Below, one piece after another: positions 22,104-39,199 of a DNA stretch of 42,538 nucleotides. A program made the translations under genes and the position numbers. How positions within the stretch are numbered: position 1 is the first letter of the stretch; each line of letters opens with the position of its first letter. This DNA is from a virus. Below the pieces are notes generated by a model. That model was not told where the DNA came from. It did not search any database and was given only the letters and a program-made list of their open reading frames with translations. The stretch lies in the IMG/VR virus record IMGVR_UViG_3300037585_001111, positions 1 to 42,538 of that record; one strand, written 5' to 3'.

Positions 22104-25100
22104 ATGAAGAGTTTAACAGACCCTACAAACAGGGATACTGAACTAGCTATGGTGACTAAAGGAGAATTTGTTTCTCCAAAGGAAACTATGGAGATTTATG
22201 GTCCGACACTAGCAGCACAAAGGAATCATGGGCTTGCTCTAAGAGCAGCTCGTAATAAAGCTTTCTTAGAAGGCAAACCTATACCTAAGATAGTACCTCC
22301 TCCTCCTGAGATAACTGCAATGAACTCAGGTGGTATAATGTTATCAGATGAAGACAAAGATCTATTAATTAGAATGGCTGCTGCAGAAGCTAGAGGTGAA
22401 GACCTTACATCACAAGCTGGTGTTATGTATGTTGCTTTAAATAGACAAAAGGCAAATAGAGAAGAGCATGGTGGTGATAAACTACATGATATAATAAAGA
22501 AAAAGCATGCGTTTACTTCTACACTAGATCCTACAAATAGCTACTGGTACGATAAGAAGAATACTGATATAAAAACGTCTGCAGAATATAAGAAAGCTGC
22601 AAGTATTCTCGAAGGTATCTTAAGTGGTGAGATAAAAGATCCTACTAATGGAGCTGAATTCTTTTTAAATGAAGAGCTTACTAGACAGCAACGTAAAGAT
22701 GGTAAATTACCTGGGTGGTATGACAATGTGAAAGCTAAGAAGCGTCTCGGTAAACATACATTTGCTCAGCATCCTGATTATGTAGAAAAGGTAACTAAAT
22801 CTATTGTACCTTCAGTACGCGGTGCGCAAAATCGTATTATACCAGAATATAACCCAGGTGGTTTTGTTGGAGGTTTACCCATGGAAGAAGAAGAAGAAGA
22901 TCCCATAATGAATTTCATGAAGAACCATCAAGGTAGGTTAGGTGACGTTAATCCTGAAGATGTAGCAGCTGGTATAATATCAGATGAGTATCTACTACAG
23001 AACTCTTCAGATTCAGGAGCCAATAGCTTTAGGGAAGCTAATCAAATGCAGTATGGAGATCCAAGACAATCTATCTCTATGCCTGGCGCATTCATGGGAA
23101 ATATGACAGATGCTCAATCGTTACGTGGTGGTAATATTAGACCTGACATGATGCCTCCTGGTTATGTTCCACCTAAACCAGAAGTAATTCAACGTACTAC
23201 ATCGCCTCAAGGTGGTGCAGATAGAATTGCTTTTAATAACATAACATCTAATTTAGATTTACAAGTTCCTCGCAGTGGTGGATTGATGAATGCTGTTGTA
23301 CCTCCTGCTAATGCAGGTGTAGGTGATTGGATTGAAAACTGGAAAGCTGAAGTAGCTAAGTACAAAGCTATAATGAACAATCCTGATATGTATAATAGAA
23401 TGAGTCCTGCAGAAAAAGAGCTTATGATCTCTAAAAGAAAAGAGTTAGAGAATAAGATAGGTGAAAGTAATAGAGCTAAACTAACTCAAATACCTTACAT
23501 GGATATGGCTAACCCAACAAACCGTAAGATGTATCCAGCAGCAGATGGCTATGATTTAAATAACGAAATGCCATTACAATCTAGCTCTGAATACACTCCT
23601 CTATATCAAAACATGTTTATGCACGGCGGTGATGGAACCACTGGATTTGAAAGAGATGCTGCTATTGTTAAAAATAATCCTTTAGGTATATTTACTCCTG
23701 AGAATGAAAAGGCATATGCAGAAAAGGCTTTAGAAATAGCTCAAGATCAACTTGAAAACTTAGATGGTGAAACAACTCTTAATCCTTTTAGTGCTAACTT
23801 TGATTTTCGACTGTTACCTAACCCAGGTGAAGTTATAGAAGAAAGAGCTAACCGAGCATTAGAAGCTAAGAACAAAGCGTTAGCAGATATAGCAGTAGCA
23901 GATGAAAAGATAAAAGCAAAGAATGAAGAAGAAGCCCGTAAAGATGTTGACAGAATAAATAGAAGAATACAATCTTTAGAGAATGCTAAGCTAAACACTA
24001 ATTCACCTGAAGCAAAAGCCGCTTTGGATAAAGAAATTAATAAGCAGAAAAGCTTACTGAATGATCTTAATGACGAATTTAATTTTGATGATGATAAGAA
24101 AGGTGATGATACACCAACTGATCCTTATGCAGGCACACAGGTAGATAAGATTGTAGCTGAGCTTGCTAAGAAGAACGGTGGTAGATTTCCTGCTAACTTA
24201 GAAGATGCTGCTGCTAAGGGTAAACTAGAAGATGCAGGAAGAAGAGTAAATCCTAAGAGTAAAACATGGGAAAAAGCTAAAAGCTTCTTAAAAGATCTGT
24301 TTGGAGATATCTTTAATAAGAAAGATCTTGGTAAAGCAATAGCTATATACCTAGGTGCTAGAATATTTGGCGCTTCACCTAACCAAGCAGGTGCTATGGC
24401 AGGTAAATATTACTTAGCTAGACAAGATAAGCATGAAGCTAACGTTGCAGCCTACATGAAGGCTGGTAAACATAAGCCTTCTTCTATCGCTAAGTTCGCT
24501 AAGACTAGGAATTTAAATGATTTAGAACTTATTGGTACATTAGTTAGTCCTACTAATACATATGAGACTTTTTACAAACGTCTTCGTAATGGTAAAGAAA
24601 TTAAGGTAATGGCTAGAAAGTATAAGATAGGTGAGGATGGTTCTGGTTGGAAGATTCAAATAGATGATCCTGATAATCCAGGAAAACGTATATGGGTAGC
24701 CTTCGATCCTACTCAAGGCTTTACTACTGATGGTAGTAGGTTTAGGTCTGGTGGTGATGAGTATACTAAGGAAGTAGCTAGACTACAAAAGCTAGGTGCA
24801 ACATTAGTTAAACCAGAATTGTCAATTCTAGATGATAAGGGTGTTGAAAAGAGAATCTTTGAAAACTTTAATGAACAGAAGGCTGGTGTTCAATGGGGAG
24901 CATGGCTTATAGATAATAATATACCTGCTGATACTGGAACTGAAATGCTTAACATGGCTGTTACTATGATGAAGCAAGAGAAGAAAAGAGATCCAAAGAA
25001 GAAAGCTGGTTATGGTTCTATAAAACCTTACTTAGATAAGACATTTGTTATAGTTAAGACTGAAGGTACTGGAGTTAGTGGTGTAGCATTTAAGAACGCT

Positions 25101-25406
25101 GATGGTGAATATATTCCTGCTACTGATTTAGATAGAGCTATTTCTAATGTACGCGCGACAGCTATAAAAGCTAATCCTGAGATAGCAAATTATAATCCAG
25201 TTATGGTAGATACAATGATTGTTAAGAATGCTGGTATAAACTATCAAGCATACTTAGATAGAATACTAAAGAACAAGCCTACAGATATGAGTGATATAGA
25301 TTTCTTAAATGAGAACGATGATTTTAGAATTAGAGCTCAGAATATGGACCCTCAGACTACTCCTTTGTACGAGTTCATGAGAGCAGGTGGTATTAACGCT
25401 ACATAG
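22104..25406 (+). CDS. Virion protein with a SleB-like cell wall hydrolase domain
   Basis: This is a 1100-residue protein. The N-terminus has AMVTKGEFVSPKE, a motif seen at starts of phage tape-measure or internal proteins. Residues about 84-225 look like a Hydrolase_2 / SleB domain: LLIRMAAAEARGEDLTSQAG with E95 as the likely catalytic acid, VALNR, then GAEFFL and KHTFAQHPDY near the end. Such domains cut peptidoglycan; in a virion protein it would open the wall for DNA entry. A charged coiled coil follows (about 590-680, ending in DDDKKGDD), then a basic, Ala-rich part and a soluble C-terminal domain. GGAGAG lies before the ATG. Confidence 0.62.
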   Translation: MKSLTDPTNRDTELAMVTKGEFVSPKETMEIYGPTLAAQRNHGLALRAARNKAFLEGKPIPKIVPPPPEITAMNSGGIMLSDEDKDLLIRMAAAEARGEDLTSQAGVMYVALNRQKANREEHGGDKLHDIIKKKHAFTSTLDPTNSYWYDKKNTDIKTSAEYKKAASILEGILSGEIKDPTNGAEFFLNEELTRQQRKDGKLPGWYDNVKAKKRLGKHTFAQHPDYVEKVTKSIVPSVRGAQNRIIPEYNPGGFVGGLPMEEEEEDPIMNFMKNHQGRLGDVNPEDVAAGIISDEYLLQNSSDSGANSFREANQMQYGDPRQSISMPGAFMGNMTDAQSLRGGNIRPDMMPPGYVPPKPEVIQRTTSPQGGADRIAFNNITSNLDLQVPRSGGLMNAVVPPANAGVGDWIENWKAEVAKYKAIMNNPDMYNRMSPAEKELMISKRKELENKIGESNRAKLTQIPYMDMANPTNRKMYPAADGYDLNNEMPLQSSSEYTPLYQNMFMHGGDGTTGFERDAAIVKNNPLGIFTPENEKAYAEKALEIAQDQLENLDGETTLNPFSANFDFRLLPNPGEVIEERANRALEAKNKALADIAVADEKIKAKNEEEARKDVDRINRRIQSLENAKLNTNSPEAKAALDKEINKQKSLLNDLNDEFNFDDDKKGDDTPTDPYAGTQVDKIVAELAKKNGGRFPANLEDAAAKGKLEDAGRRVNPKSKTWEKAKSFLKDLFGDIFNKKDLGKAIAIYLGARIFGASPNQAGAMAGKYYLARQDKHEANVAAYMKAGKHKPSSIAKFAKTRNLNDLELIGTLVSPTNTYETFYKRLRNGKEIKVMARKYKIGEDGSGWKIQIDDPDNPGKRIWVAFDPTQGFTTDGSRFRSGGDEYTKEVARLQKLGATLVKPELSILDDKGVEKRIFENFNEQKAGVQWGAWLIDNNIPADTGTEMLNMAVTMMKQEKKRDPKKKAGYGSIKPYLDKTFVIVKTEGTGVSGVAFKNADGEYIPATDLDRAISNVRATAIKANPEIANYNPVMVDTMIVKNAGINYQAYLDRILKNKPTDMSDIDFLNENDDFRIRAQNMDPQTTPLYEFMRAGGINAT

Positions 25407-25419
25407 AATGGAGTCATAA

Positions 25420-28400
25420 ATGGCAGAAATAGAAGAACAAGACTTCCTACAATCTATAATTGATTACAAACCTAATATGATTGGAGTTATGGAAGCTGTT
25501 GACGGTGATACTGTTATTCACCCTGACATAGATAAGCCTGTTAGACTTGAAGGCTATGATACACAAGAAGTACCTAAGTGGATTGAAGGTGAATATAAAG
25601 CTGGTACTGCAGGTGGTGAAACAGAAGCTAATGTATTAACTCGTCTTGCAAATGAGATGGGTTATACTGAACTAAGGTTACGTCGTGATAGTCGCGGTAG
25701 ACCGATAATAGATAGTACTAAGAAGAGATACTTAGGGGATCTATATAATGACAAAGGTCAATCATGGAAACGTAAGTTACTTAGTGAAGGTATACAGAAT
25801 CCTACTAAATATACATCTCAAGAAAATAGAATATTCTTTGAATTAGAACAACAAAGAAGACAAGAAGAGTTTTCAGCAGGTCTATATGAAGAAGATGAAT
25901 GGTCTCGTGCAAGAGAAGATATACTAGCTGCGTTAGATAGAGAAGGGTATAGGAAAGCAGGCATAAAGCTTATAGCTCAAGATGAAAGAGAGTTAAAGTA
26001 CATGAGAGATATGGGGCTAGGTAATTACTTTACTGATGCTGAAGTTGTATCTCGAAGTGGTGATAGAACTCTTCTCAATAAAGCTTTAGATCCTACAAAA
26101 GATACTTGGAATAAAACCTGGGTAGGCGTAAGAGAAGCATCGTTTGGTGTTGTTGAAGCGTTCGGTGATCTAACACATTGGGATGCTGTTTCACAAATAG
26201 GTGAGATGGGAGTTGAAAGAGCACGTAGACAAGTTGAACCTTATGCTGAGTCTATACAGTCTTATAAAGATGTAGATGGTTTTTATAGCGGTTTAGAATA
26301 CTTTACTAATATGTTAGCTATGTCTGTACCTTACATGGGTATAACAGCAGCTGCTTACTTTGCTGCTCCTGCTACTATGGGAGCATCTCTAGCAATACCT
26401 TCATCATTGTATGCTGGTCAAACTTATAATGAGATGGACGATAAGAATAAGAATGTTGGCGTTGCAGCTATATCAGGTGTAACTCAGATGGCATTAGATA
26501 TGCTGGGTCTTAGATATATTATGAAGTCTCCTATAGCTAGTAAAGAGTTATTTCAAAAAGCTTATAAAGAACTAGTGAATAAAGGTATGGCTCCAGCTCA
26601 AGCTAGACAAGAAATAGGTAGAGCAACAAGAGTATCTTTAGCTAAGTTTGCAGGTGATGCAGCTAATGAAGCATCTAAGCAGTTAGCTGCTAAACAAGTA
26701 TTCATAGACTTAATTAAGAGACAAGCTAAATCTGGTACTATGGAAAGTGTTACTGAAGGACTACAAGAAGCTACAGCTTATCTTGCAGCACACCATAAAG
26801 ATATTGGTGAAGGTGTAATAAACATGGAAGAGCTAGTCTCTCGTACTACAGAAGGTATGGTTGCAGGCGCTGTGTTAGGTGGTGGTATAGCAACAATGGG
26901 TGGTGTACAGAACTATGCTGGCTGGACTGATGTTAAGTATAGATTAGCACCTGCTCATGAGAAAGATTTATCTACTGCTTCTATGTTATCAGAGTTAGAA
27001 GCTAAGTCTAAAGAAGGAATGAAGTCTAATGAAGAGAATGCTGCTGATGCAGCTGCAAGGCATGAGACGTACAAGAGAGCTGGCGGATATGATACTTTAT
27101 ATAGTGAACCTGAACATCTTATAGTTAGGACTGATGAAGAATTAGCTCGTCGTAAGGAGCAAGGTCTTTTCGAAGAGGCTAAAGAAAGGTTTATGAATCC
27201 TCTAGGATTATTTCAAGGTTCTGTTCCTAATGCTATAAGTAATTCTGATGCTATACAGTATAGAGCATTAAGAAGATTAAGAGACTTACTTGGTGGTGTA
27301 CTACAAAGAGTGTATGATGGTGAAAACTTCATGTCAACTAAGCATCATGCTGTTGCTATATATAAGAATATGGTTGCTCCAGATAAAATGTTCTTTAAAG
27401 AAATGGGAGAAACTGGTAGACTTAATATGAAAGCAAGAGAAAGAGCTAGTCATAATCTAATAAACTTTACTAAGAAGTATGCTGGAAATAGTAAGGTTCC
27501 TCGATCTGAAGAAGAGATAGATAAACATTATGAGAAGACTGTACCTAAAGATTTACCTAATAGAACTAATTTAATAAAGCATGCTAAGCTTATAGAATTA
27601 CTTTCTAATAAACTACGTAGAGATCAGGTAGCTGCTGGTGCTAAGATGGGATATATTCCTAACTACTTATTTAGATTTAAAGCTCCGAATAAGCGTGCCA
27701 TATATAAAGATAAAGCAGAGTTTCAGAAGTTACTTCAAGAAGAATATAACTATACTCCTGATGCAGCTAAGAAAAGTACTGATGAGTTAATAGATAATCA
27801 TGAAGTATATGATCTAGACTCTGCAACGTTTAGTGTTACTAACCAAGGTATTGTACCTTCTGCTCATAGAAAGAGATCATTAAACCTATCAGAGAATCCT
27901 AAGTTTGATAAGTTTATGGATCAAGATATATACAATAATATTAGTCAATCATCTAAACAAGCTGCTAGATTTATAGGACATCGTAAGTTTATAGGTGAGA
28001 ACGCTAAGATTATAAATACTTTACTTCATGAAGCTGAATACGAAGATGGCGCTCCTAGAGCGAAAGTAAACAAGATAGCTAGACTAGTTAAAGATGTACT
28101 TGATTCAGACTCAGGTAACTATAACAGACCTACCACAGAGATGGGTAAGAAACTTATGAGGTTGCAAAGAAACTTCTTAACACTAAGTACCTTTGCATCA
28201 CTACCGTTAGCTGCTATATCATCTTCAGTTGAGTTAGGTCTTGTAACTAAAGGCTTGACAGCTGATGAAATATTTAGTACTAAGAAAGGTAAAGATGGAC
28301 AGCACTTAGGATTAAGAGGTATAGGTAGAGAGTTAGGTAAATCTATATGGGATGGAACTAAAGAGATAGCAGACTTAGGTACTCAAAGATCTTCTGATGA

Positions 28401-29502
28401 TATATTCTCTTGGGGTCAGCAAAGACTTCGAGAGTTAGGTCTATATGATTGGTCAGTTGGTGCGGCTACAGTTACAGGTGTTACTGAAACTAATGCAGCA
28501 CAACAGATGTACTTCGAAGCTTTCTTTAAATGGAATGGTTTAACTGGTATTACTAACTTACCTAGAGCTATGAGAGCTTCTTTATTCGGAGACTTCTTAT
28601 ATAATAGAGTAGAAGAAATACATTTACATCGTCAAAGTGGAGACCCTAAGACAAGATCTGTACAAGAAGCTGAGCAACAACTACGTGATTTAGGTGTTCG
28701 TATAAGCGGAGACAATAATATTGTTGATCTAATGTTTGATTCAGATCTAATAGCTACTGGTAAAGACTTAACAGCTCTTAATCCTACTGGAGAAGGAACT
28801 ATATCTATTAAGTTGACAGGAAATAATCCACTGGCAATTGATCGTGTTAAGTTTAAAGAAGAAATGCTAGGTAAGCAAGTACAAGAAGCTACCTTTAATT
28901 TTATTAGAGATGCTGTTGCATTACCTGATGCTGCCAACAGACCATTGTTCTATCAAGATCCTCGGTTTGCTTTGTTCTTTCAGTTTCAAGGTTTTATAGC
29001 TACATTTACAGCTAACCATATACCTAAGTTATGGGGTGAGTACATTAAACGAGGTACTCCAGCATTAAAGTATAATGCATTTGCTACTATGTCAACTATG
29101 ATTATGCTTAGCTTTGCTTCACAGTATCTTAAAGATCTACTTAAATACGGAGAGTCTACTCCTTACTTAGATGATGCTGAGTATTATCAGAGAGGTATAA
29201 GATCTTCTGGATTATTAGGTACAAGTGAAAGGATTATAGATCAGTTCATGCCTTTGTACGATTATAGATCTGGATCAGGTCCTAGTGCTTGGGTGTTTGA
29301 TACAACAACAAGTGAGGCTCCTGCTTTAGGCTATGCTAAAAGAACGTTAGGTGCTATGCGCAAATTCTCTGAAGGTGATGTAGGAGAATCAGTAAGACTA
29401 GGTACTAAGCTACTTCCTGTTGTTGCACCGTTTAATCAGATCGGTAATCAATGGGGTAAATTCGCAGATAGATGGAACTTTAACAATAGTGGAATAGAAT
29501 AA
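25420..29502 (+). CDS. gp16-like DNA ejection protein with an N-terminal SNase-like nuclease domain
   Basis: This is a 1360-residue protein. Residues about 20-125 match staphylococcal nuclease: D28-G-D30-T, R42-L-E-G-Y-D47-T-Q-E50, and R103-Y-L-G-D-L-Y...G...LLSEG. These positions correspond to the Ca2+-binding Asp residues and the catalytic Arg-Glu-Arg of the family. The rest looks like the largest internal core protein of T7-like phages: a Gly/Ala hydrophobic stretch (PYMGITAAAYFAAPATMGAS, about 305-325), long charged helices, and a C-terminal part with QDPRFALFFQFQGFIATFTA and a Gly/Leu helix, typical of gp16-type proteins that form the trans-envelope channel. It is followed by a TAATG overlap with the next gene. 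The nuclease assignment is from the residue pattern; activity is not shown. Confidence 0.62.
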   Translation: MAEIEEQDFLQSIIDYKPNMIGVMEAVDGDTVIHPDIDKPVRLEGYDTQEVPKWIEGEYKAGTAGGETEANVLTRLANEMGYTELRLRRDSRGRPIIDSTKKRYLGDLYNDKGQSWKRKLLSEGIQNPTKYTSQENRIFFELEQQRRQEEFSAGLYEEDEWSRAREDILAALDREGYRKAGIKLIAQDERELKYMRDMGLGNYFTDAEVVSRSGDRTLLNKALDPTKDTWNKTWVGVREASFGVVEAFGDLTHWDAVSQIGEMGVERARRQVEPYAESIQSYKDVDGFYSGLEYFTNMLAMSVPYMGITAAAYFAAPATMGASLAIPSSLYAGQTYNEMDDKNKNVGVAAISGVTQMALDMLGLRYIMKSPIASKELFQKAYKELVNKGMAPAQARQEIGRATRVSLAKFAGDAANEASKQLAAKQVFIDLIKRQAKSGTMESVTEGLQEATAYLAAHHKDIGEGVINMEELVSRTTEGMVAGAVLGGGIATMGGVQNYAGWTDVKYRLAPAHEKDLSTASMLSELEAKSKEGMKSNEENAADAAARHETYKRAGGYDTLYSEPEHLIVRTDEELARRKEQGLFEEAKERFMNPLGLFQGSVPNAISNSDAIQYRALRRLRDLLGGVLQRVYDGENFMSTKHHAVAIYKNMVAPDKMFFKEMGETGRLNMKARERASHNLINFTKKYAGNSKVPRSEEEIDKHYEKTVPKDLPNRTNLIKHAKLIELLSNKLRRDQVAAGAKMGYIPNYLFRFKAPNKRAIYKDKAEFQKLLQEEYNYTPDAAKKSTDELIDNHEVYDLDSATFSVTNQGIVPSAHRKRSLNLSENPKFDKFMDQDIYNNISQSSKQAARFIGHRKFIGENAKIINTLLHEAEYEDGAPRAKVNKIARLVKDVLDSDSGNYNRPTTEMGKKLMRLQRNFLTLSTFASLPLAAISSSVELGLVTKGLTADEIFSTKKGKDGQHLGLRGIGRELGKSIWDGTKEIADLGTQRSSDDIFSWGQQRLRELGLYDWSVGAATVTGVTETNAAQQMYFEAFFKWNGLTGITNLPRAMRASLFGDFLYNRVEEIHLHRQSGDPKTRSVQEAEQQLRDLGVRISGDNNIVDLMFDSDLIATGKDLTALNPTGEGTISIKLTGNNPLAIDRVKFKEEMLGKQVQEATFNFIRDAVALPDAANRPLFYQDPRFALFFQFQGFIATFTANHIPKLWGEYIKRGTPALKYNAFATMSTMIMLSFASQYLKDLLKYGESTPYLDDAEYYQRGIRSSGLLGTSERIIDQFMPLYDYRSGSGPSAWVFDTTTSEAPALGYAKRTLGAMRKFSEGDVGESVRLGTKLLPVVAPFNQIGNQWGKFADRWNFNNSGIE

Positions 29503-32500
29503 TGTCAAAATTTAATCGTGGATCCAGGTCGACCCGTTCTCAACCAATAGCGAGAGGTGGAGATGCTGAAAAAGCATTAAGAGATAAAACAGCTAGAGCA
29601 TTTGTAGGCGAACAGTTAAGCCAACAAGATCCTGAAGTAAGAGCTTTCTTTGAGAGTATTATAGGTATAACTCCTGAAGAGATAGAACAAGCTCAAGTAG
29701 AAGGTGCTAATATAGATAAGAACTTTAGAGGAGATACCTTTACTGGTACTCCTGATGTAAGGTTCACTGACGAAGATGTGAATGAAGGTGTAGTTCCAGA
29801 TGAGCTATACCGACCAAATATAAAGGAGCGTCAAGCAGCTTCAAGAGCTGGGGAGACTCCTAACTATCAGTTAAGACGTCCAGAAGAAAAGCCTACTAAG
29901 AGTAGATACTTTGCTGGTAAGGAGTTTAAGAGTGCTTCTAGTTACGATGGTGGTTTAACGAATCGTCTTAAGAAAGGATTAATTAATATACACACTAATG
30001 GATTGTTTAGACTAGGTACTAATCCAGTAGGTCAGACATATCCTGATGCTGCTAAGGTTGGTAAAGGTACTAACATTGATGGCGTGTATACTCCACCACC
30101 GCAACAGTCAGTTAGTCCTAAGATACAGCAGGCTGCAGTACAAGAGCAAACTGGAAGTAATAAGTCTGGTGACTATGATCTTAAGTTAGTTAGAGCTATC
30201 ATGAAAGGTGGAGGTCTAGCTTACAATAAAGATGTAGCTGAAGGATCTCATATGCCTTCACAAGACTACGATAGAGTAGCTTTACTTGTAACTGAGAATG
30301 CTATTGCTGATAGAACCTATTTAGCTGTAGATGATTTTGAAGTTGATCCTATTACTGGTGAGAAAATAACTGATGAGACTAGAGAACAATTGCTTGCACG
30401 AGAGCAAGTAGCTGCAGAAGAGAAGCGTTTAACAACAGGTGTTTCAGTTACTATGGCTGCAGGTAATGGAGCTTTAGGTAATCAGATACACCAAGAGTGG
30501 TTACGTCTTAATCCTGATCTTGAAAAGACTAAACTAACTAGAGAAGAAGCAGAGACATTAGGTTCAGGTTATAAAGAACTATATGCTAATCTAAATCCTG
30601 ACATACTACAACGTGTTGAGACTAAGTTTGAACAAACAGAGTTTAGACTACTTGATAGCGCTGTACCTGATCTTATAGCAGGTCAGTCTATACGTCAAGC
30701 ACTATTCCCTAAGCAGGTTATAAAACCACTAACAGCTCCTATGTTCTCTGGTACTATTAGTGAAGGAGATATGGCTAACTTTACTAAGGTAGTATTAGGT
30801 CCTGTAGGTGAGAAGCAAGTAAAAGAAATACTTAAAGCATTTAAAAACTTAGGATCTGTTGGTCATGTAGTTGATAAACGTAGGAATAAGATACTTCTTT
30901 CAACATTACTTAGACACTTAAATAATAATGATGTTATGTCTTGGGAAGCTGAGATACATGGTATGGGTGAGACTAAAAATAAAGAGTATCTTGCTAAAGA
31001 GAAGTTTGATACTAGACAGATGCTTTTAGATGGTTATGTATACAACGATGAAATAGGTTATTACACACACCCTAATGAGAGTTATCCTGATATACATCCA
31101 AGCTATATGTATAATGCTAGTGAGGTTATGAACAACTCATTAGATAGTTATGCGCAACAAGTTCATGCTATACAAGCAGCAAGGAATCAAATAAGTTATT
31201 TAACATTTGCTGCCTTAGGGTATAACCAACGTCTTATACCTCAGCAAACTCACTTTAATCCTGTTACATCTAAAGTAACTAGGTATGTAACTAGAGCTGC
31301 TAGACCTGACGTAATAAAACCTGCGTCTATAGAAGAGAATAACTTACGACAGATGTATGCAGCTATATTAGTTGATGGTACAGCTAAGAAACTAGATAGA
31401 GTAAGAGAAGAGAAGCTAAGAGCAGCAACTCCAAAGTTAAGAGAGTGGGGTAATATATTAAGAGAGCTACAGCAAGTAAGTGATAGCGACTACGAAATGG
31501 TTGCTGATGCTATAGCTAATAAGATACCTCTCAATGATCCTGCGTGGCCTGTTGATGCAGCTAATAGAGTTGCTGGTAGTCTTCAGTTAGATCCACAACA
31601 GCATGGTGAACTCATGGCTGCTATTAAAGCTAAAGGTGGCTTTGAAGGTTTAGTATACATAGATGGTTTAATAGACTTTGCTAACTACATGGATGCAAGG
31701 ACAGCTGGTAAGAACTTTACTACATTCTTTAATGCTTATCCTGATGGTATCACTAATGGTATTGCATCTAATGCTGTACAGATGGGTCATAGACAGACAG
31801 CTAAACGTACTGGTATCATAAGAGAGAATGATGTAGGTGATTTACTTGATGACGGCGATATTAGAGATGCTGTTGCTAGAACTTCTCTTGCATCTATAGG
31901 TGACGGCTGGAATAATATTAAACAAGATAGTGAAGAAGGTATCACCATGACTTCACACTTGAACACAGTAGCTAATGAACTATATGGTTTTAAAGACTTA
32001 AATAAAAGTACTACCATGGTTTATGGTTATGGTATGGAGTTGCAGAGTTTCTGGATTAAGTTTAGAGATAGTCTTAACTTAAAGTTAGAATATGATAACC
32101 CAGATTTAAAACACGCATATGAATACCTGATGAGTAAAGAAGCTTTTGACAATGATTTAGACGCTTTATCTGTGATTTTAAATGAGAAGTATTCTGTATC
32201 GCTTGAAGACACTATGTCTACTGATGCGATACAATCAAGACGATTAGTACGTGCAGCTGCTGGTATGCATATAGCGTTAGACGAGAACTTTAGAATTGAC
32301 TTGCCACTAGGTAAAGGTGCTTATGGTAGGTATGTATCTGAAGGTCAAGCTACTGCTGATGTAACTACATTTAATATATATGAACCAGAAGGTTATGATG
32401 CTGAAGGTAACGTACTTCCTGATCCAGAAACTGGTAAGCCTAGACTTAAGAAGCAGGCTAGAAAATCAGTACACTATAAGAGACGTATGACTGCAGCTGC

Positions 32501-33350
32501 TGCTAAACCTGCTGGAGGTGGTAAGACCTTTGGTAAGTATGCTTATGGTGGTGCTTTACCTGGACCTATACAAGCGCTTGACGCTGTTACAATTGTAAAG
32601 ACTGCAACAGGTAAATCATGGAACGATATATCTAATGCAGGTGGTGGTAACCCTTACATGTTTAGTATATATGATGCTGTTAAAGTAACTGCAGGTAATA
32701 TGCACGTAGTATTAGATGAGATAAATAATAACTGGTTTAACGAGTCTATGAAGTACTCTTATCTACAAGCTATGAGAGATGCTACTGTAGCTAACATGAA
32801 AAAGTTTAGACAGAACAAAGCTAAAGTTCTTAAAGAGATGGGTGATCAACCTATACCTATAATTAAAGCTGGATACATGCATCAGGTACTACAACCTACA
32901 GAGTTTTATGTTCAGAAGGATGGTAGTAAGAAACCTAACTTTGCTAAGTCACCATTAACTAAACAGTTAAGTAAAATGGCTGCTAAACCTGAAGGTAAAG
33001 TAGATGCGGTTACTGGAAGACCTATAACTACAGACAGTCAAGCGTTCTTCAATCAAGTAAGAGACTTTGCTAGAGGAATGTATGCTGCTCTTAAAAAAGT
33101 AGGATTTGATTATCGTATTAATGAAGAAGACTACGGTCTTCCAGAATTAGAAGAGTTTGCAGCCAATACAACTTACAGACAATACTATGCTTTTGTTGAA
33201 GAGTTCTACAGACTATTAGACTTTGAGAGCCGTATGAACAAGATGATAGCTAAGACAAATGCTAATAAGAAGTTGTTAGCTGAAGAGCTAAAGAAGAATG
33301 GTCATAAGTCAAGAAGTGGACGTATGGTACCTAGACAATACGAACTTTAA
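29502..33350 (+). CDS. Candidate virion RNA polymerase (divergent single-subunit RNAP)
   Basis: The 1282-residue protein shows, in order, the four landmarks of T7-family RNA polymerases. (1) YNQRL at 574-578 then FNP at 585-587 aligns with the T7 'DWRGRVY...MFNPQ' block. (2) FANYM...FNAYPDGITNGIASNAVQMG aligns with motif A, the metal-binding Asp being D748. (3) K835-STTM-VYG-Y843-G aligns with motif B (K-x3-M-x3-YG), but Lys replaces the usual Arg four residues before. (4) PGPIQALDAVTIV then SIY1057-D1058-AVKV aligns with motif C, with Tyr for His before the second catalytic Asp. About 550 N-terminal residues have no clear match. It is the last gene of the internal-virion block, so it may be packaged and injected as N4 vRNAP is; N4's is about 3500 residues. 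Found by eye, not by search. Confidence 0.6.
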   Translation: MSKFNRGSRSTRSQPIARGGDAEKALRDKTARAFVGEQLSQQDPEVRAFFESIIGITPEEIEQAQVEGANIDKNFRGDTFTGTPDVRFTDEDVNEGVVPDELYRPNIKERQAASRAGETPNYQLRRPEEKPTKSRYFAGKEFKSASSYDGGLTNRLKKGLINIHTNGLFRLGTNPVGQTYPDAAKVGKGTNIDGVYTPPPQQSVSPKIQQAAVQEQTGSNKSGDYDLKLVRAIMKGGGLAYNKDVAEGSHMPSQDYDRVALLVTENAIADRTYLAVDDFEVDPITGEKITDETREQLLAREQVAAEEKRLTTGVSVTMAAGNGALGNQIHQEWLRLNPDLEKTKLTREEAETLGSGYKELYANLNPDILQRVETKFEQTEFRLLDSAVPDLIAGQSIRQALFPKQVIKPLTAPMFSGTISEGDMANFTKVVLGPVGEKQVKEILKAFKNLGSVGHVVDKRRNKILLSTLLRHLNNNDVMSWEAEIHGMGETKNKEYLAKEKFDTRQMLLDGYVYNDEIGYYTHPNESYPDIHPSYMYNASEVMNNSLDSYAQQVHAIQAARNQISYLTFAALGYNQRLIPQQTHFNPVTSKVTRYVTRAARPDVIKPASIEENNLRQMYAAILVDGTAKKLDRVREEKLRAATPKLREWGNILRELQQVSDSDYEMVADAIANKIPLNDPAWPVDAANRVAGSLQLDPQQHGELMAAIKAKGGFEGLVYIDGLIDFANYMDARTAGKNFTTFFNAYPDGITNGIASNAVQMGHRQTAKRTGIIRENDVGDLLDDGDIRDAVARTSLASIGDGWNNIKQDSEEGITMTSHLNTVANELYGFKDLNKSTTMVYGYGMELQSFWIKFRDSLNLKLEYDNPDLKHAYEYLMSKEAFDNDLDALSVILNEKYSVSLEDTMSTDAIQSRRLVRAAAGMHIALDENFRIDLPLGKGAYGRYVSEGQATADVTTFNIYEPEGYDAEGNVLPDPETGKPRLKKQARKSVHYKRRMTAAAAKPAGGGKTFGKYAYGGALPGPIQALDAVTIVKTATGKSWNDISNAGGGNPYMFSIYDAVKVTAGNMHVVLDEINNNWFNESMKYSYLQAMRDATVANMKKFRQNKAKVLKEMGDQPIPIIKAGYMHQVLQPTEFYVQKDGSKKPNFAKSPLTKQLSKMAAKPEGKVDAVTGRPITTDSQAFFNQVRDFARGMYAALKKVGFDYRINEEDYGLPELEEFAANTTYRQYYAFVEEFYRLLDFESRMNKMIAKTNANKKLLAEELKKNGHKSRSGRMVPRQYEL

Positions 33351-33675: not shown

Positions 33676-35973
33676 TTATGCGAAGAAATAATCAGAATCT
33701 TCTATGCCATTTATACTTAGGCTGCCTAACTCTGGTTGTTCAACGTCTATTTCTTCTTTATCTGTTATTATCTGTTCTTCTATGTAGTTGTAGAAGTTAT
33801 CTACATCGTACATATCTATGAACTTACGTTTAGTGTGAGCAAGTAATAGCTCTACATCACAAGCATGCGTTGAAAAACTATCGTGCACAGCGCCAAACTC
33901 TCCATTCCAATCGTCTATTACGAGTGCCATATGACTAGCGTCCATAGAGTGAACAAAGTTAGGTGATATTCCTGTCATAAATCCTCTTATACTAGGAAGT
34001 TTAGTTGCTACTTGGGCACAGTGTTGTACAACGCCACGTTTATTGTACGTAGTGTATCCACTTATAGTACCTTTAGCTTTACGCTTTTGCATTTGAAAAT
34101 TAGTATACTCTACTGGAAACCCTGATGGAGTTGTCCAGCATAGCTTATCTTTACCATTACCGTATACTAATCTAGATTCATATGAGTTTATAAATTGAAC
34201 TAGCTTACTCAACTCTTCTAGTTCCTCATCTGTCTTATCTTTCTTTATATAAAGTTCTTTCTGTCTGGCGATAACATCTGAATATTCTTTACCTGCTATC
34301 TCTCCCTCTGGAGAAAACTTTACATACTTTCCTATCTCAAATAGAGCTAGCTTCTGTAAGTATGACATAGTACTTAGTGGTCCTGGACATACTTTGTCTA
34401 TTGCTTTGATTAGAATCTTAGCAAACTTGTTACAGTCATCTTGTGTAATACCATATATAGTATGGTAGTCTTCTACTTTAGAATCAAAGAACATGTTCTC
34501 TGCAATCTTACTAGCACCTGCAGAATACGCTCTTGTCATTGATCCGCGTTTAGTTATACCCTTACGTATATGTTTCATAGGCATAGAGTTTAGTATGCTT
34601 TTTAATCTATCATCTTCAGTAAGCTTAATTAACTCTTTAGCTGCCTGCACGTAGAAATCTTTTTGTATTACAGTAGGTATTAACCCAACAAGATCGCCTG
34701 TCTGAGTATCCTTAGACATAGATCCTAAGTGCTGCCAACCGTTGTTGCTACCGTCGATAGGTATAGGTAAATGTGACATGTGTAGTCTATGATCTTTCTT
34801 AGCTTCATGGTAGTCGTACCATTCAACACAACACGCTAAGAATGATACAGTCTTTTCGCATGGTACAAAAGAAGTAGTACGTCCTAATTCAACTATCCAA
34901 TCCATGTTATTGTTTACCCAGTTAACTCTATCTTCTAAAGTCATTTTATCTACAGATATATCTTCTAGTCCTTCTGATTTAAGATAACCTTTATAGTCTT
35001 GCTCAGTCCACTCAGGTATCTCGTCTATCTTGTAGCTTTCGTTATAGCTGACAGCTGTATGCACTGCTAACCAGAATAAACCACTGTCTGTCATTGGCTT
35101 ACCTCTAGCAAACTTCAACATACCTCTAGATAAATCAGATCCTTGAAAGTTTAAGAAGGGTTCTATGTAATAGATTCTACCACGATAATCTGCATCTACG
35201 TATTGGTAAAACACATCATGATCCTTTAGTAGCTTAGCCTTAGATGTAATGAACTTCCATTCCATAACTTTACTACGTCGTTTCATTTCTTTTACATCGT
35301 TATTCTCATAAGGTTCTTCGCGTAAGAACGTACTCTTGCTATTAAGTAATGCGTCATATACTTTTCTATTTATACGCCAGCCAGTTTTCTGTAGCTTATT
35401 CATAGCATTTATATATGGTTGTTTTAGATTTAAGTGATCATCTTTTAACTTATTCTTAATAACTAAATGTCTATCATTCTGTACCATAGAAGTAATAGAC
35501 TTTGGTAACGTAGTTCTTGTAGCTGTTAAGTTAATACGTGTAGTAGCTTCGTGCAAGTCTGCTAACTCGATCCACTTAGGTGTAGCAGATATTATATGGC
35601 TGCTATCTCTTATTCTTGGGTAATATAAATCTATAAAACCACAGTTATAAAAGCCTTCGACAAACAGATCACCTAATCGTAACTCCATAGACCAAGGCAA
35701 CTTATCTCTTTTAAGCAGCCTATGTATATGTTGACCGATTTTAAATGATGTGTTAGTCAATTGTGAAGTACCTGCAGGGCTATCACTTGTATCTTTAGTA
35801 AATAATATTTGTATAGTCTGCAGTGCGGAGTTAACAAATATATCCATGTCTTCTTTATAATTTTTATGTAACTTTAATAATACCCCACCAGAGTTAGCTT
35901 TCGGATTGTTTATATTTATTCCATCCACTTTCTCTAAGAGGTAGCTGGTTACTTGATCTATAGGTTTTGACAT
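33676..35973 (-). CDS. T7-type single-subunit DNA-directed RNA polymerase
   Basis: The 765-residue enzyme transcribes phage genes. Landmarks: DADYRGRIYYIEPFLNFQGSD (T/DxxGR block); PIDGSNNGWQHLGSM with catalytic D407 (motif A); KGITK475-RGSMTRAY483 (motif B); FVHSMDASHMALV and AVHD698-SF (motif C). It is shorter than the T7 enzyme (883), with a reduced N-terminal domain. The frame opens with TTG at 35976, but the ATG at 35973 has GAGG 5 bases upstream and is the better start. It overlaps the deaminase gene by 80 bases. It lies near the end of its operon, unlike T7 gene 1, which is the first major early gene. Confidence 0.93.
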   Translation of the reverse strand: MSKPIDQVTSYLLEKVDGININNPKANSGGVLLKLHKNYKEDMDIFVNSALQTIQILFTKDTSDSPAGTSQLTNTSFKIGQHIHRLLKRDKLPWSMELRLGDLFVEGFYNCGFIDLYYPRIRDSSHIISATPKWIELADLHEATTRINLTATRTTLPKSITSMVQNDRHLVIKNKLKDDHLNLKQPYINAMNKLQKTGWRINRKVYDALLNSKSTFLREEPYENNDVKEMKRRSKVMEWKFITSKAKLLKDHDVFYQYVDADYRGRIYYIEPFLNFQGSDLSRGMLKFARGKPMTDSGLFWLAVHTAVSYNESYKIDEIPEWTEQDYKGYLKSEGLEDISVDKMTLEDRVNWVNNNMDWIVELGRTTSFVPCEKTVSFLACCVEWYDYHEAKKDHRLHMSHLPIPIDGSNNGWQHLGSMSKDTQTGDLVGLIPTVIQKDFYVQAAKELIKLTEDDRLKSILNSMPMKHIRKGITKRGSMTRAYSAGASKIAENMFFDSKVEDYHTIYGITQDDCNKFAKILIKAIDKVCPGPLSTMSYLQKLALFEIGKYVKFSPEGEIAGKEYSDVIARQKELYIKKDKTDEELEELSKLVQFINSYESRLVYGNGKDKLCWTTPSGFPVEYTNFQMQKRKAKGTISGYTTYNKRGVVQHCAQVATKLPSIRGFMTGISPNFVHSMDASHMALVIDDWNGEFGAVHDSFSTHACDVELLLAHTKRKFIDMYDVDNFYNYIEEQIITDKEEIDVEQPELGSLSINGIEDSDYFFA

Positions 35974-36373
35974 CAAGTCCTCTTTCTTTTAAAAATTGTA
36001 GCGCGTAGCTATCATACATCTCGTCGTATACTACTCTAATAATCCCTGCTTGTAGTATTAGTTTAGCGCACTCAATGCAAGGCGAGTGTGTGGTATATAT
36101 TGTAGCTCCTTCAGAGCTGCCACCTGTTTTAGCTAACTTCATAAGCGCATTAGCTTCCGAGTGGATAACTTCAGGTTTAGTTATACCATCAGGATGTCTT
36201 GTGTGATTACACATACCTGTTGGCATACCATTAAACCCTTGCGAAAGCACCTGTCCATGACGGACTATGATGCTTCCAACTTTTATATCGTCATCAAACG
36301 ATAGCTGACTAAACACGTGAGCTACCGTTAAGTATATCTTATCATAACGTTCCTGTTTGGAATTCAAATCCAT
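35894..36373 (-). CDS. dCMP deaminase
   Basis: This 159-residue zinc enzyme converts dCMP to dUMP, feeding dTTP synthesis. Seen: H-S-E-A-N in VIHSEANALMKLAKT (zinc His and proton-shuttle Glu), then HSPCIECAKLILQAG with the two zinc Cys (PCxxC). DDDIKVGSIIVRHGQVLSQGFNGMPTGM before these is the usual first part of the fold. At the annotated ATG the GGAG touches the start codon; the TTG two codons on (36367) has GGAG at 5 bases and may be the true start. The gene overlaps the primase-helicase at one end and the RNA polymerase at the other. Confidence 0.88.
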   Translation of the reverse strand: MDLNSKQERYDKIYLTVAHVFSQLSFDDDIKVGSIIVRHGQVLSQGFNGMPTGMCNHTRHPDGITKPEVIHSEANALMKLAKTGGSSEGATIYTTHSPCIECAKLILQAGIIRVVYDEMYDSYALQFLKERGLDVKTYRSSNQLPLRESGWNKYKQSES

Positions 36374-37970: not shown

Positions 37971-38159
37971 TTAATTCCATCTTTCTTCTCTGTGTAATCT
38001 CCTTACTCGTCTTTCTTTAGACGCCTTAAGTTTATTACTAATCCTCTTTTGTTTCTTTGATTTAATATTATTATATTCTTCAAGCTCCGTTATGGGAGGC
38101 AACTCTAATCCTGAGAAACTCTTCTCCCTTGCTAACGATTTCTTTGTGTAGTTCGACAT
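37971..38159 (-). CDS. Small basic hypothetical protein
   Basis: I start this gene at the ATG at 38159 (AAGG 6 bases upstream), giving 62 residues; the frame is open to a TTG at 38189. The product, beginning MSNYTKKSLAREKSF, is strongly basic, ending in ASKERRVRRLHREERWN. It could bind nucleic acid. It overlaps the end of the RusA-like gene by 80 bases and touches the primase-helicase start, so it sits in a translationally coupled chain. No family is recognised. Confidence 0.42.
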   Translation of the reverse strand: MSNYTKKSLAREKSFSGLELPPITELEEYNNIKSKKQKRISNKLKASKERRVRRLHREERWN

Positions 38160-38442
38160 AGTATACCTTGTTATCATTAAACTCTTCAAAGATACCTTGA
38201 TACGTATCTAAGATAGGTTTTATTACGTTATCAATGTCAGCTCCTCTATTAGATAAGCCGGCGTTTACAATGAATGAGACCTGATTAGCATCAAATGGCC
38301 AATCAGTTCCCATTAGGTCATCGCGTATCTCATTCTGATACGCAACATATTCAGGACTCTTGAATGTCCTCTTGCCTCTCGCTCCGAACATCCTGTTCGC
38401 AGACAGTGGCTTGGTCTTGAATGTGTTGTCTAACTTCTTCAT
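38080..38442 (-). CDS. RusA-like Holliday junction resolvase
   Basis: The 120-residue protein matches RusA in layout: KPLSANRMFG near the start, SPEYVAYQNEI helix, then GADIDNVIKPILDTYQGIFEEFND (the D-x-DN-x-x-K core with metal-binding Asp) and NDNKVYYVELHKEI. RusA enzymes cut Holliday junctions and branched DNA; here the protein would do the job of T7 endonuclease I (gp3) in resolving replication and packaging intermediates. It overlaps the exonuclease gene upstream by 92 bases and the basic-protein gene downstream. Confidence 0.75.
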   Translation of the reverse strand: MKKLDNTFKTKPLSANRMFGARGKRTFKSPEYVAYQNEIRDDLMGTDWPFDANQVSFIVNAGLSNRGADIDNVIKPILDTYQGIFEEFNDNKVYYVELHKEIVSKGEEFLRIRVASHNGA

Positions 38443-39199
38443 AATGTTTGTTTACTTCCTTAAGTAAATAAGAGTCATCAATCTGTTTTCTAATATCGTC
38501 ATATTCCTTCCATGATTTTAACATAGTTAGTAGTCGAAGACTTATACTTGGATCTCCTGCATTATGTTCTACCCATGCTTTCTCTACGTATTTGTATCGA
38601 TCTTTCATAGGTATGCCATCAAGTATCTTACGAGCTTTAACTTTACCTATACCTTTAATGCCTGGTATGTTATCACCAGAGTCTCCTATTAAACATTGCA
38701 TATGTAAGTTAAGATCAGCTTCGTCATCATTAATAAAGCTATGTTCTTTCTTATTAAAGTTATAATGATTACCTGGTATCTGAAGTAGATCTTTATCTAT
38801 ACCTACTACAAAGTAAGGCATGTCCATTTCTCTAGCTTCATAAGCCCATATAGCTACTAAGTCATCTGCTTCCATATCGTGTGCTTCAATAGCATCCCAC
38901 TTGGAAGTCATGTGTGCATGACCATAGCTTAAGGCTTCTTTTAGATCCTCATCTAGTTCTCTACGATTAGCTTTATACTCTTTGTATAAGTCTTTACGAA
39001 AGTTACCTTTACCTTTAACAGCTACTCGAAGCTTACCCATCATACAGGTAGCCTCTATCTCTGTCATTAGCTTATCGATATTCTTTCGTATATCGTTCTT
39101 CTTCTTTGACGCACACGCAGATCTAAAGTATATAGAGTCTGCATCAACTAAGACTACTGAGTCAGTTGATATAACGTCGTGGTTAGTGGATGTCTGCAT
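38351..39199 (-). CDS. 5'-3' exonuclease (FEN / T7 gp6-like)
   Basis: This 282-residue nuclease removes RNA primers and trims DNA ends. Seen: VVLVDADSIYFR (first metal-binding Asp), KGNFRKDLYKEYKANR, AHDMEADDLVAIWAYEA (acidic cluster), VVGIDKDLLQIPG, and QCLIGDSGDNIPGIKGIGK, the Asp pair followed by the helix-3-turn-helix DNA-binding motif. AAGGA lies 7 bases before the ATG. The gene overlaps the polymerase stop by 17 bases. Confidence 0.9.
   Translation of the reverse strand: MQTSTNHDVISTDSVVLVDADSIYFRSACASKKKNDIRKNIDKLMTEIEATCMMGKLRVAVKGKGNFRKDLYKEYKANRRELDEDLKEALSYGHAHMTSKWDAIEAHDMEADDLVAIWAYEAREMDMPYFVVGIDKDLLQIPGNHYNFNKKEHSFINDDEADLNLHMQCLIGDSGDNIPGIKGIGKVKARKILDGIPMKDRYKYVEKAWVEHNAGDPSISLRLLTMLKSWKEYDDIRKQIDDSYLLKEVNKHYEEVRQHIQDQATVCEQDVRSERQEDIQES

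Follow-up and report, generated by a model that had tools for sequence, protein, structure and literature searches.

The window, that is, the whole stretch of viral DNA analysed here (42,538 nucleotides), encodes a large ejection-type protein of marine podoviruses whose N-terminus probably constitutes a complete, Ca2+-dependent nuclease of the staphylococcal nuclease (SNase) fold that may act in the cell envelope, outside the DNA channel. The open reading frame for this protein of 1360 residues is a real gene, with an ATG 13 bases past the stop codon of the upstream gene and a GGAG ribosome-binding site approximately 10 bases 5' of the ATG. The parts of the protein and its neighbours are listed in Table 1.

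Table 1. Coordinates in the window of the SNase-bearing protein, its parts and the adjacent genes.
Feature	Coordinates	Strand	Evidence or remarks
Upstream neighbour, probable muralytic ejection protein; Cell Wall Hydrolase domain at residues 98-221	22104..25406	+	PF07486, E 5e-8, above curated cut-off
Large virion/ejection-type protein with SNase domain, 1360 aa	25420..29502	+	Open reading frame; homologues in CRP-7 (gp34) and many IMG/VR contigs
SNase-like domain, residues ~22-148	25483..25863	+	Family alignment, PDB profile search, AlphaFold model, fold searches
DGDT, residues 28-31 (SNase D19-T22; D30 corresponds to Ca2+ ligand D21)	25501..25512	+	D28, D30, T31 invariant in 19 loci; G29 varies (A, Q)
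RLEGYDTQE, residues 42-50: R42, D47, T48, E50 (SNase R35, D40, T41, E43)	25543..25569	+	R42, D47, E50 invariant
R103 (SNase R87)	25726..25728	+	Invariant in 19 loci; alternative R94 not
Linker between SNase domain and virion-protein body, residues ~149-242	25864..26145	+	SNase match stops at ~148; SCYZ1 orf39 homology starts at 243
Body, LUZ24/PaP3-type particle protein homologue, residues ~243-1280	26146..29259	+	hhalign to SCYZ1 orf39; phrog_6958 matches in relatives
Downstream neighbour, 1282 aa, candidate virion RNA polymerase	29502..33350	+	Motif A D748; motif B K835/Y843/G844; motif C D1058

The motifs that first drew attention to this N-terminus, DGDT at residues 28-31, R-x4-D-T-x-E at residues 42-50 and an R-x-L-G-type region from residue 103, are found where the original prediction had placed them, and RYLGDLYNDKGQSWKRKLLSEG spans residues 103-124 of the protein. 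The domain itself was located correctly, but its end was set too early, at position 25800 of a region starting at 25420, while the domain reaches approximately 25863.

Searched by itself, the window sequence stays below the threshold of the Pfam SNase model (PF00565), and single-sequence searches of Pfam, PHROG and PDB with the domain returned WD40/cytochrome noise or a weak match to the endonuclease family phrog_452, which were for that reason given no weight. A family alignment was therefore needed to show homology. Homologues were gathered from IMG/VR by several routes and from one isolate, Roseobacter phage CRP-7. HMM searches of homologous loci recovered the protein at full length from six lineages, with identities of 20-27% between most of them; 14 N-termini were aligned, and an extended set comprises 19 loci with 15 distinct N-termini. 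When the family-alignment profile was compared with all PDB sequences, SNases made up all 60 matches listed (best E 4.9e-7), and the catalytic residues were aligned with one another. The Pfam model recognizes the N-termini of 4 of 14 relatives (best E 2.2e-5), and one full-length homologue (L037) scores 21.1 bits against a curated cut-off of 21. The missing Pfam match of the window reflects a limit of detection and not the absence of a defining residue.

Structure prediction leads to the same family. An AlphaFold model computed with five sequences was of low confidence (pLDDT 46), and its top Foldseek matches were nonetheless SNases. With 14 sequences, pLDDT rose to 78.5 and pTM to 0.71, and a Foldseek search of this model against PDB listed 50 matches, all of them SNases (best E 8.8e-5, probability 1.00). 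Structural re-alignment gave a VIA Z of 8.8 over 117 residues, with an rmsd of 4.4, for model residues 22-148. In the structure library, the best match among viral models has 1368 residues, as many as CRP-7 gp34. The viral structure ranked fourth against residues 1-160 (BFVD A7KUR9_2, E 1e-3) covers 965 residues of a large viral protein, which may represent another virion protein with an SNase-like part. The Pfam search suggested with the original prediction thus fails for the window alone but succeeds for some relatives, and the family profile retrieves solved SNases; the predicted fold is the SNase OB-fold, as had been anticipated. With the single-sequence match lacking and a different fold contradicted, the claim of an SNase-like domain on this protein survives, carried by the family profile, the Pfam matches of relatives, the fold and the invariant catalytic set. 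SNase fold and homology are virtually certain for residues ~22-148.

Catalysis by SNase depends on D21, R35, D40, E43 and R87. The only invariant columns of the 14-sequence alignment are D28, D30, T31, R42, D47, E50, G62, R103 and G113, that is, nine of the 160 N-terminal residues in relatives that are approximately 20-29% identical to the window, and the same nine are retained across the 19 loci with 15 distinct N-termini. All five catalytic equivalents (D30, R42, D47, E50 and R103) are among them; by chance, five named positions would fall among nine of 160 with a hypergeometric probability of approximately 1.5e-7, a figure that ignores relatedness and is indicative only. The complete catalytic set that had been claimed is therefore present at every one of the 19 loci, including R103 as the equivalent of R87. 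R94 was rejected for this role, as it is confined to the window and the closest relative. Among relatives, position 48 is occupied by T, A or G, a variability that is expected because SNase T41 ligates through its backbone carbonyl. The domain is under purifying selection, with dN/dS values of 0.07-0.18 in five pairs. From the conserved residues, it is very likely to be catalytically active and Ca2+-dependent. It shares with the SNase family (PF00565; micrococcal/thermonuclease) the OB-fold topology, the equivalents of D21, R35, D40, E43 and R87 and a length of approximately 130 residues. In contrast to the members of this family, which are secreted or stand-alone, it forms the N-terminus of a virion-type protein of 1360 residues, and the window lineage contains additional residues ahead of R103.

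The remainder of the protein points to the virus particle. From residue 243, the body aligns with Pseudomonas phage SCYZ1 orf39 over 791 columns (hhalign E 1.3e-21). This protein is part of the LUZ24/PaP3 family, whose members are annotated as "phage particle protein", as in the case of LUZ24 gp50, or "virion structural protein". In addition, relatives of the 1360-residue protein match the virion structural protein family phrog_6958 (up to 2e-18). By homology, the body thus belongs to a podoviral virion-protein family. LUZ24 gp50, PaP3 orf19 and SCYZ1 orf39 occupy the same site before convergent replication genes, but they are shorter (approximately 1040 residues). Since LUZ24 gp50 and its relatives lack the SNase domain, this domain is a modular addition to an otherwise shared podoviral virion protein. 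In the LUZ24-type homologues SCYZ1 orf39 and BroderSalsa (L097, 10213-13344, and L098, 10447-13566), two copies of a short LDERAAEIMAKR-like repeat stand at the start of the protein, the place of the SNase in the marine family. The gene lies at the end of the structural block, beside those of other large internal proteins, and this position is conserved. The hydrophobic segments of the body are weak on the Kyte-Doolittle scale, so that any membrane insertion is presumptive.

A protein of this size, encoded near the end of the structural block and made up of an N-terminal enzyme and a long body, resembles T7 gp16 (internal virion protein D). The two proteins can be aligned colinearly over approximately 320 C-terminal columns with P 0.017 (whole protein P 0.39; reversed control 0.3). 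Direct comparisons with T7 gp16 and gp15 were not significant, and the protein is therefore named a gp16-position ejection-type protein rather than a proven gp16 homologue. The description as gp16-like holds as far as the clear homology to LUZ24/PaP3 particle proteins and the position of a last ejection protein are concerned, but sequence homology to T7 gp16 itself is no more than suggestive. Furthermore, the N-terminal enzyme of T7 gp16 is a transglycosylase and not an SNase, so that the classification refers to the gp16 position. The gp16 homologues of P22 and Sf6 also lack the N-terminal transglycosylase (PMC8954989), and the ICP3 homologue matches T7 gp16 from residue 185 onward only. In T7, gp16 residues 1-156 (the transglycosylase) form the wings of a periplasmic tunnel, and the C-terminal part is located in the inner membrane and cytoplasm (PMC8954989). 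Muralytic N-terminal enzyme domains swap between ejection proteins, and the N-terminal enzyme slot is described for peptidoglycan hydrolases, with no nuclease named in the main review (PMC8954989).

In place of the Cell Wall Hydrolase domain, the upstream counterpart in CRP-7 carries a lysozyme-like Pesticin N-terminal domain, so that muralytic domains have been exchanged at that position; a search with these two domains gave matches in the same two lineages only. With a muralytic domain present in the upstream protein (two lineages tested), the SNase fills the N-terminal enzyme slot of the gp16 position. In the upstream protein of the closest relative (L001, 2643-5987), a region aligns with window residues 198-459 at an offset and overlaps the N-terminal match, which suggests a local duplication or rearrangement between the hydrolase domain and the body. 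In the downstream protein, D748 is invariant, K835 is near-invariant with Y843 and G844, and together with D1058 these residues fit motifs A, B and C of single-subunit RNA polymerases (13 sequences, six lineages). Comparison with the N4 vRNAP family gave an hhalign P of 0.008, aligned on motifs A and B. This protein is a candidate virion RNA polymerase, to be regarded as a lead only. A separate T7-like RNA polymerase is encoded at 33676-35976 on the minus strand.

Taken together, the kinship of the body and the gene position make it likely that the 1360-residue protein is part of the virion and is delivered into the host. It would be housed in the capsid and pass out through the tail when a cell is infected. 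The N-terminal SNase would then remain at the periplasmic side of the DNA channel, as the enzyme domain of T7 gp16 does, and the C-terminal part would reach the inner membrane and cytoplasm. In the marine periplasm, the SNase could then meet millimolar Ca2+ and cut nucleic acid outside the channel, such as the DNA of a rival or superinfecting phage or any DNA or RNA otherwise lying free, and the phage's own DNA would be shielded by passing inside the channel. Classical SNases need millimolar Ca2+, which is scarce in the bacterial cytoplasm. Because of this need and of a presumed T7-like periplasmic N-terminus, cutting in the envelope is thought likelier than its main rival, attack in the cytoplasm; a periplasmic N-terminus would suit a Ca2+-dependent enzyme and would argue against a simple attack on the host chromosome. 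By analogy to T7, the chances that the site of action is the envelope rather than the cytoplasm would be about even. It also counts against this best explanation that the nuclease would share the capsid with the genome in Ca2+-rich seawater, a problem of self-damage that the sequence does not explain. The earlier idea that the SNase is the first part of the protein to reach the cell is speculation.

Alternatively, the delivered nuclease may act in the cytoplasm, where an early breakdown of host chromosome or RNA would shut down the host and supply nucleotides for phage replication. SNases cleave both DNA and RNA, and the phage invests in nucleotide supply and DNA processing. It encodes a ribonucleotide reductase as well as a dCMP deaminase, a RusA-type endonuclease and a 5'-3' exonuclease (35894-36373, 38080-38442 and 38351-39199, respectively; all on the minus strand), which lie beside a DNA polymerase and a primase-helicase. 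This route is nevertheless rather unlikely, given the scarcity of Ca2+ in the cytoplasm, the few copies of ejection proteins that enter and the danger that an unshielded nuclease would present to the incoming genome as well. By analogy with T7, the N-terminal enzyme domain would also be periplasmic (PMC8954989). A role on the phage's own DNA, such as cutting or trimming when packaging or ejection finishes or freeing the genome end from the ejection complex, would agree with the link to a probable DNA-conducting protein and with strict conservation in six lineages. However, the LUZ24/SCYZ1 homologues manage without an SNase, which speaks against a core step of ejection, and nucleases of this type, lacking sequence specificity, are a poor fit for trimming; such a role appears improbable. 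Slightly less probable still is a non-catalytic domain that only binds nucleic acid or a partner, as a tether for the leading DNA end or as a structural plug. Nucleic-acid binding is common in OB-folds, and catalysis has been lost in certain SNase-fold domains (extended Tudor), but here the Ca2+ ligands, the general base and both arginines never vary and the rest of the domain has diverged almost throughout, the opposite of what loss of catalysis would produce. Finally, a chance resemblance of the motif in a domain that is not SNase-like, for which the lacking Pfam match of the window and the pLDDT of 46 of the first model could be quoted, is practically excluded by the profile match (E 5e-7), the Pfam matches in relatives, the confident fold and the invariance of the catalytic residues.

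The SNase-bearing protein can also be compared with other known systems. CRP-7 gp34, a direct homologue, agrees with it in the SNase domain, the catalytic residues and the gene order, but is only 23% identical overall, is annotated as "hypothetical protein" and has a different muralytic domain in its upstream neighbour. CRP-7 is a podovirus by TEM (PMC6918029). A tblastn search against named phages with the SNase-type domain retrieved CRP-7 or noise only, and no relative turned up when bacterial and archaeal genomes were scanned. Kolga EXVC016S and DSS3_VP1 share replication genes with the window but, as annotated, not the structural block. Like the present protein, the BtI1 hub protein is a virion protein that begins with an SNase-related domain, and its role is described as obscure by the authors (PMC2147016). 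It differs in being a baseplate hub from a single prophage-like element of Bacillus thuringiensis, a relative of phage 0305phi8-36 with a Gram-positive host. No description of an SNase, or of any other nuclease, fused to a podoviral ejection or internal virion protein was found in the open-access literature searched. Therefore, an SNase on a podoviral ejection-type protein seems to be undescribed, with the BtI1 hub as the one precedent found for an SNase on a virion protein.

Podovirus infection requires ejection proteins, whose N-terminal slot has so far been known for peptidoglycan hydrolases, and virions of this marine podovirus family may deliver a nuclease at the very moment of infection. 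A conserved and apparently active nuclease, present in uncultured phages and in the cultured CRP-7, makes its delivery, its site of action and the sparing of the phage's own genome in the capsid and during entry accessible to testing. As a far more tentative and on balance doubtful extension, widespread marine podoviruses could carry an active nuclease outside their trans-envelope DNA channel, arming the envelope against any nucleic acid located outside it. If true, this would be a virion-delivered device for superinfection exclusion or DNA interference that takes effect immediately and needs no gene expression.
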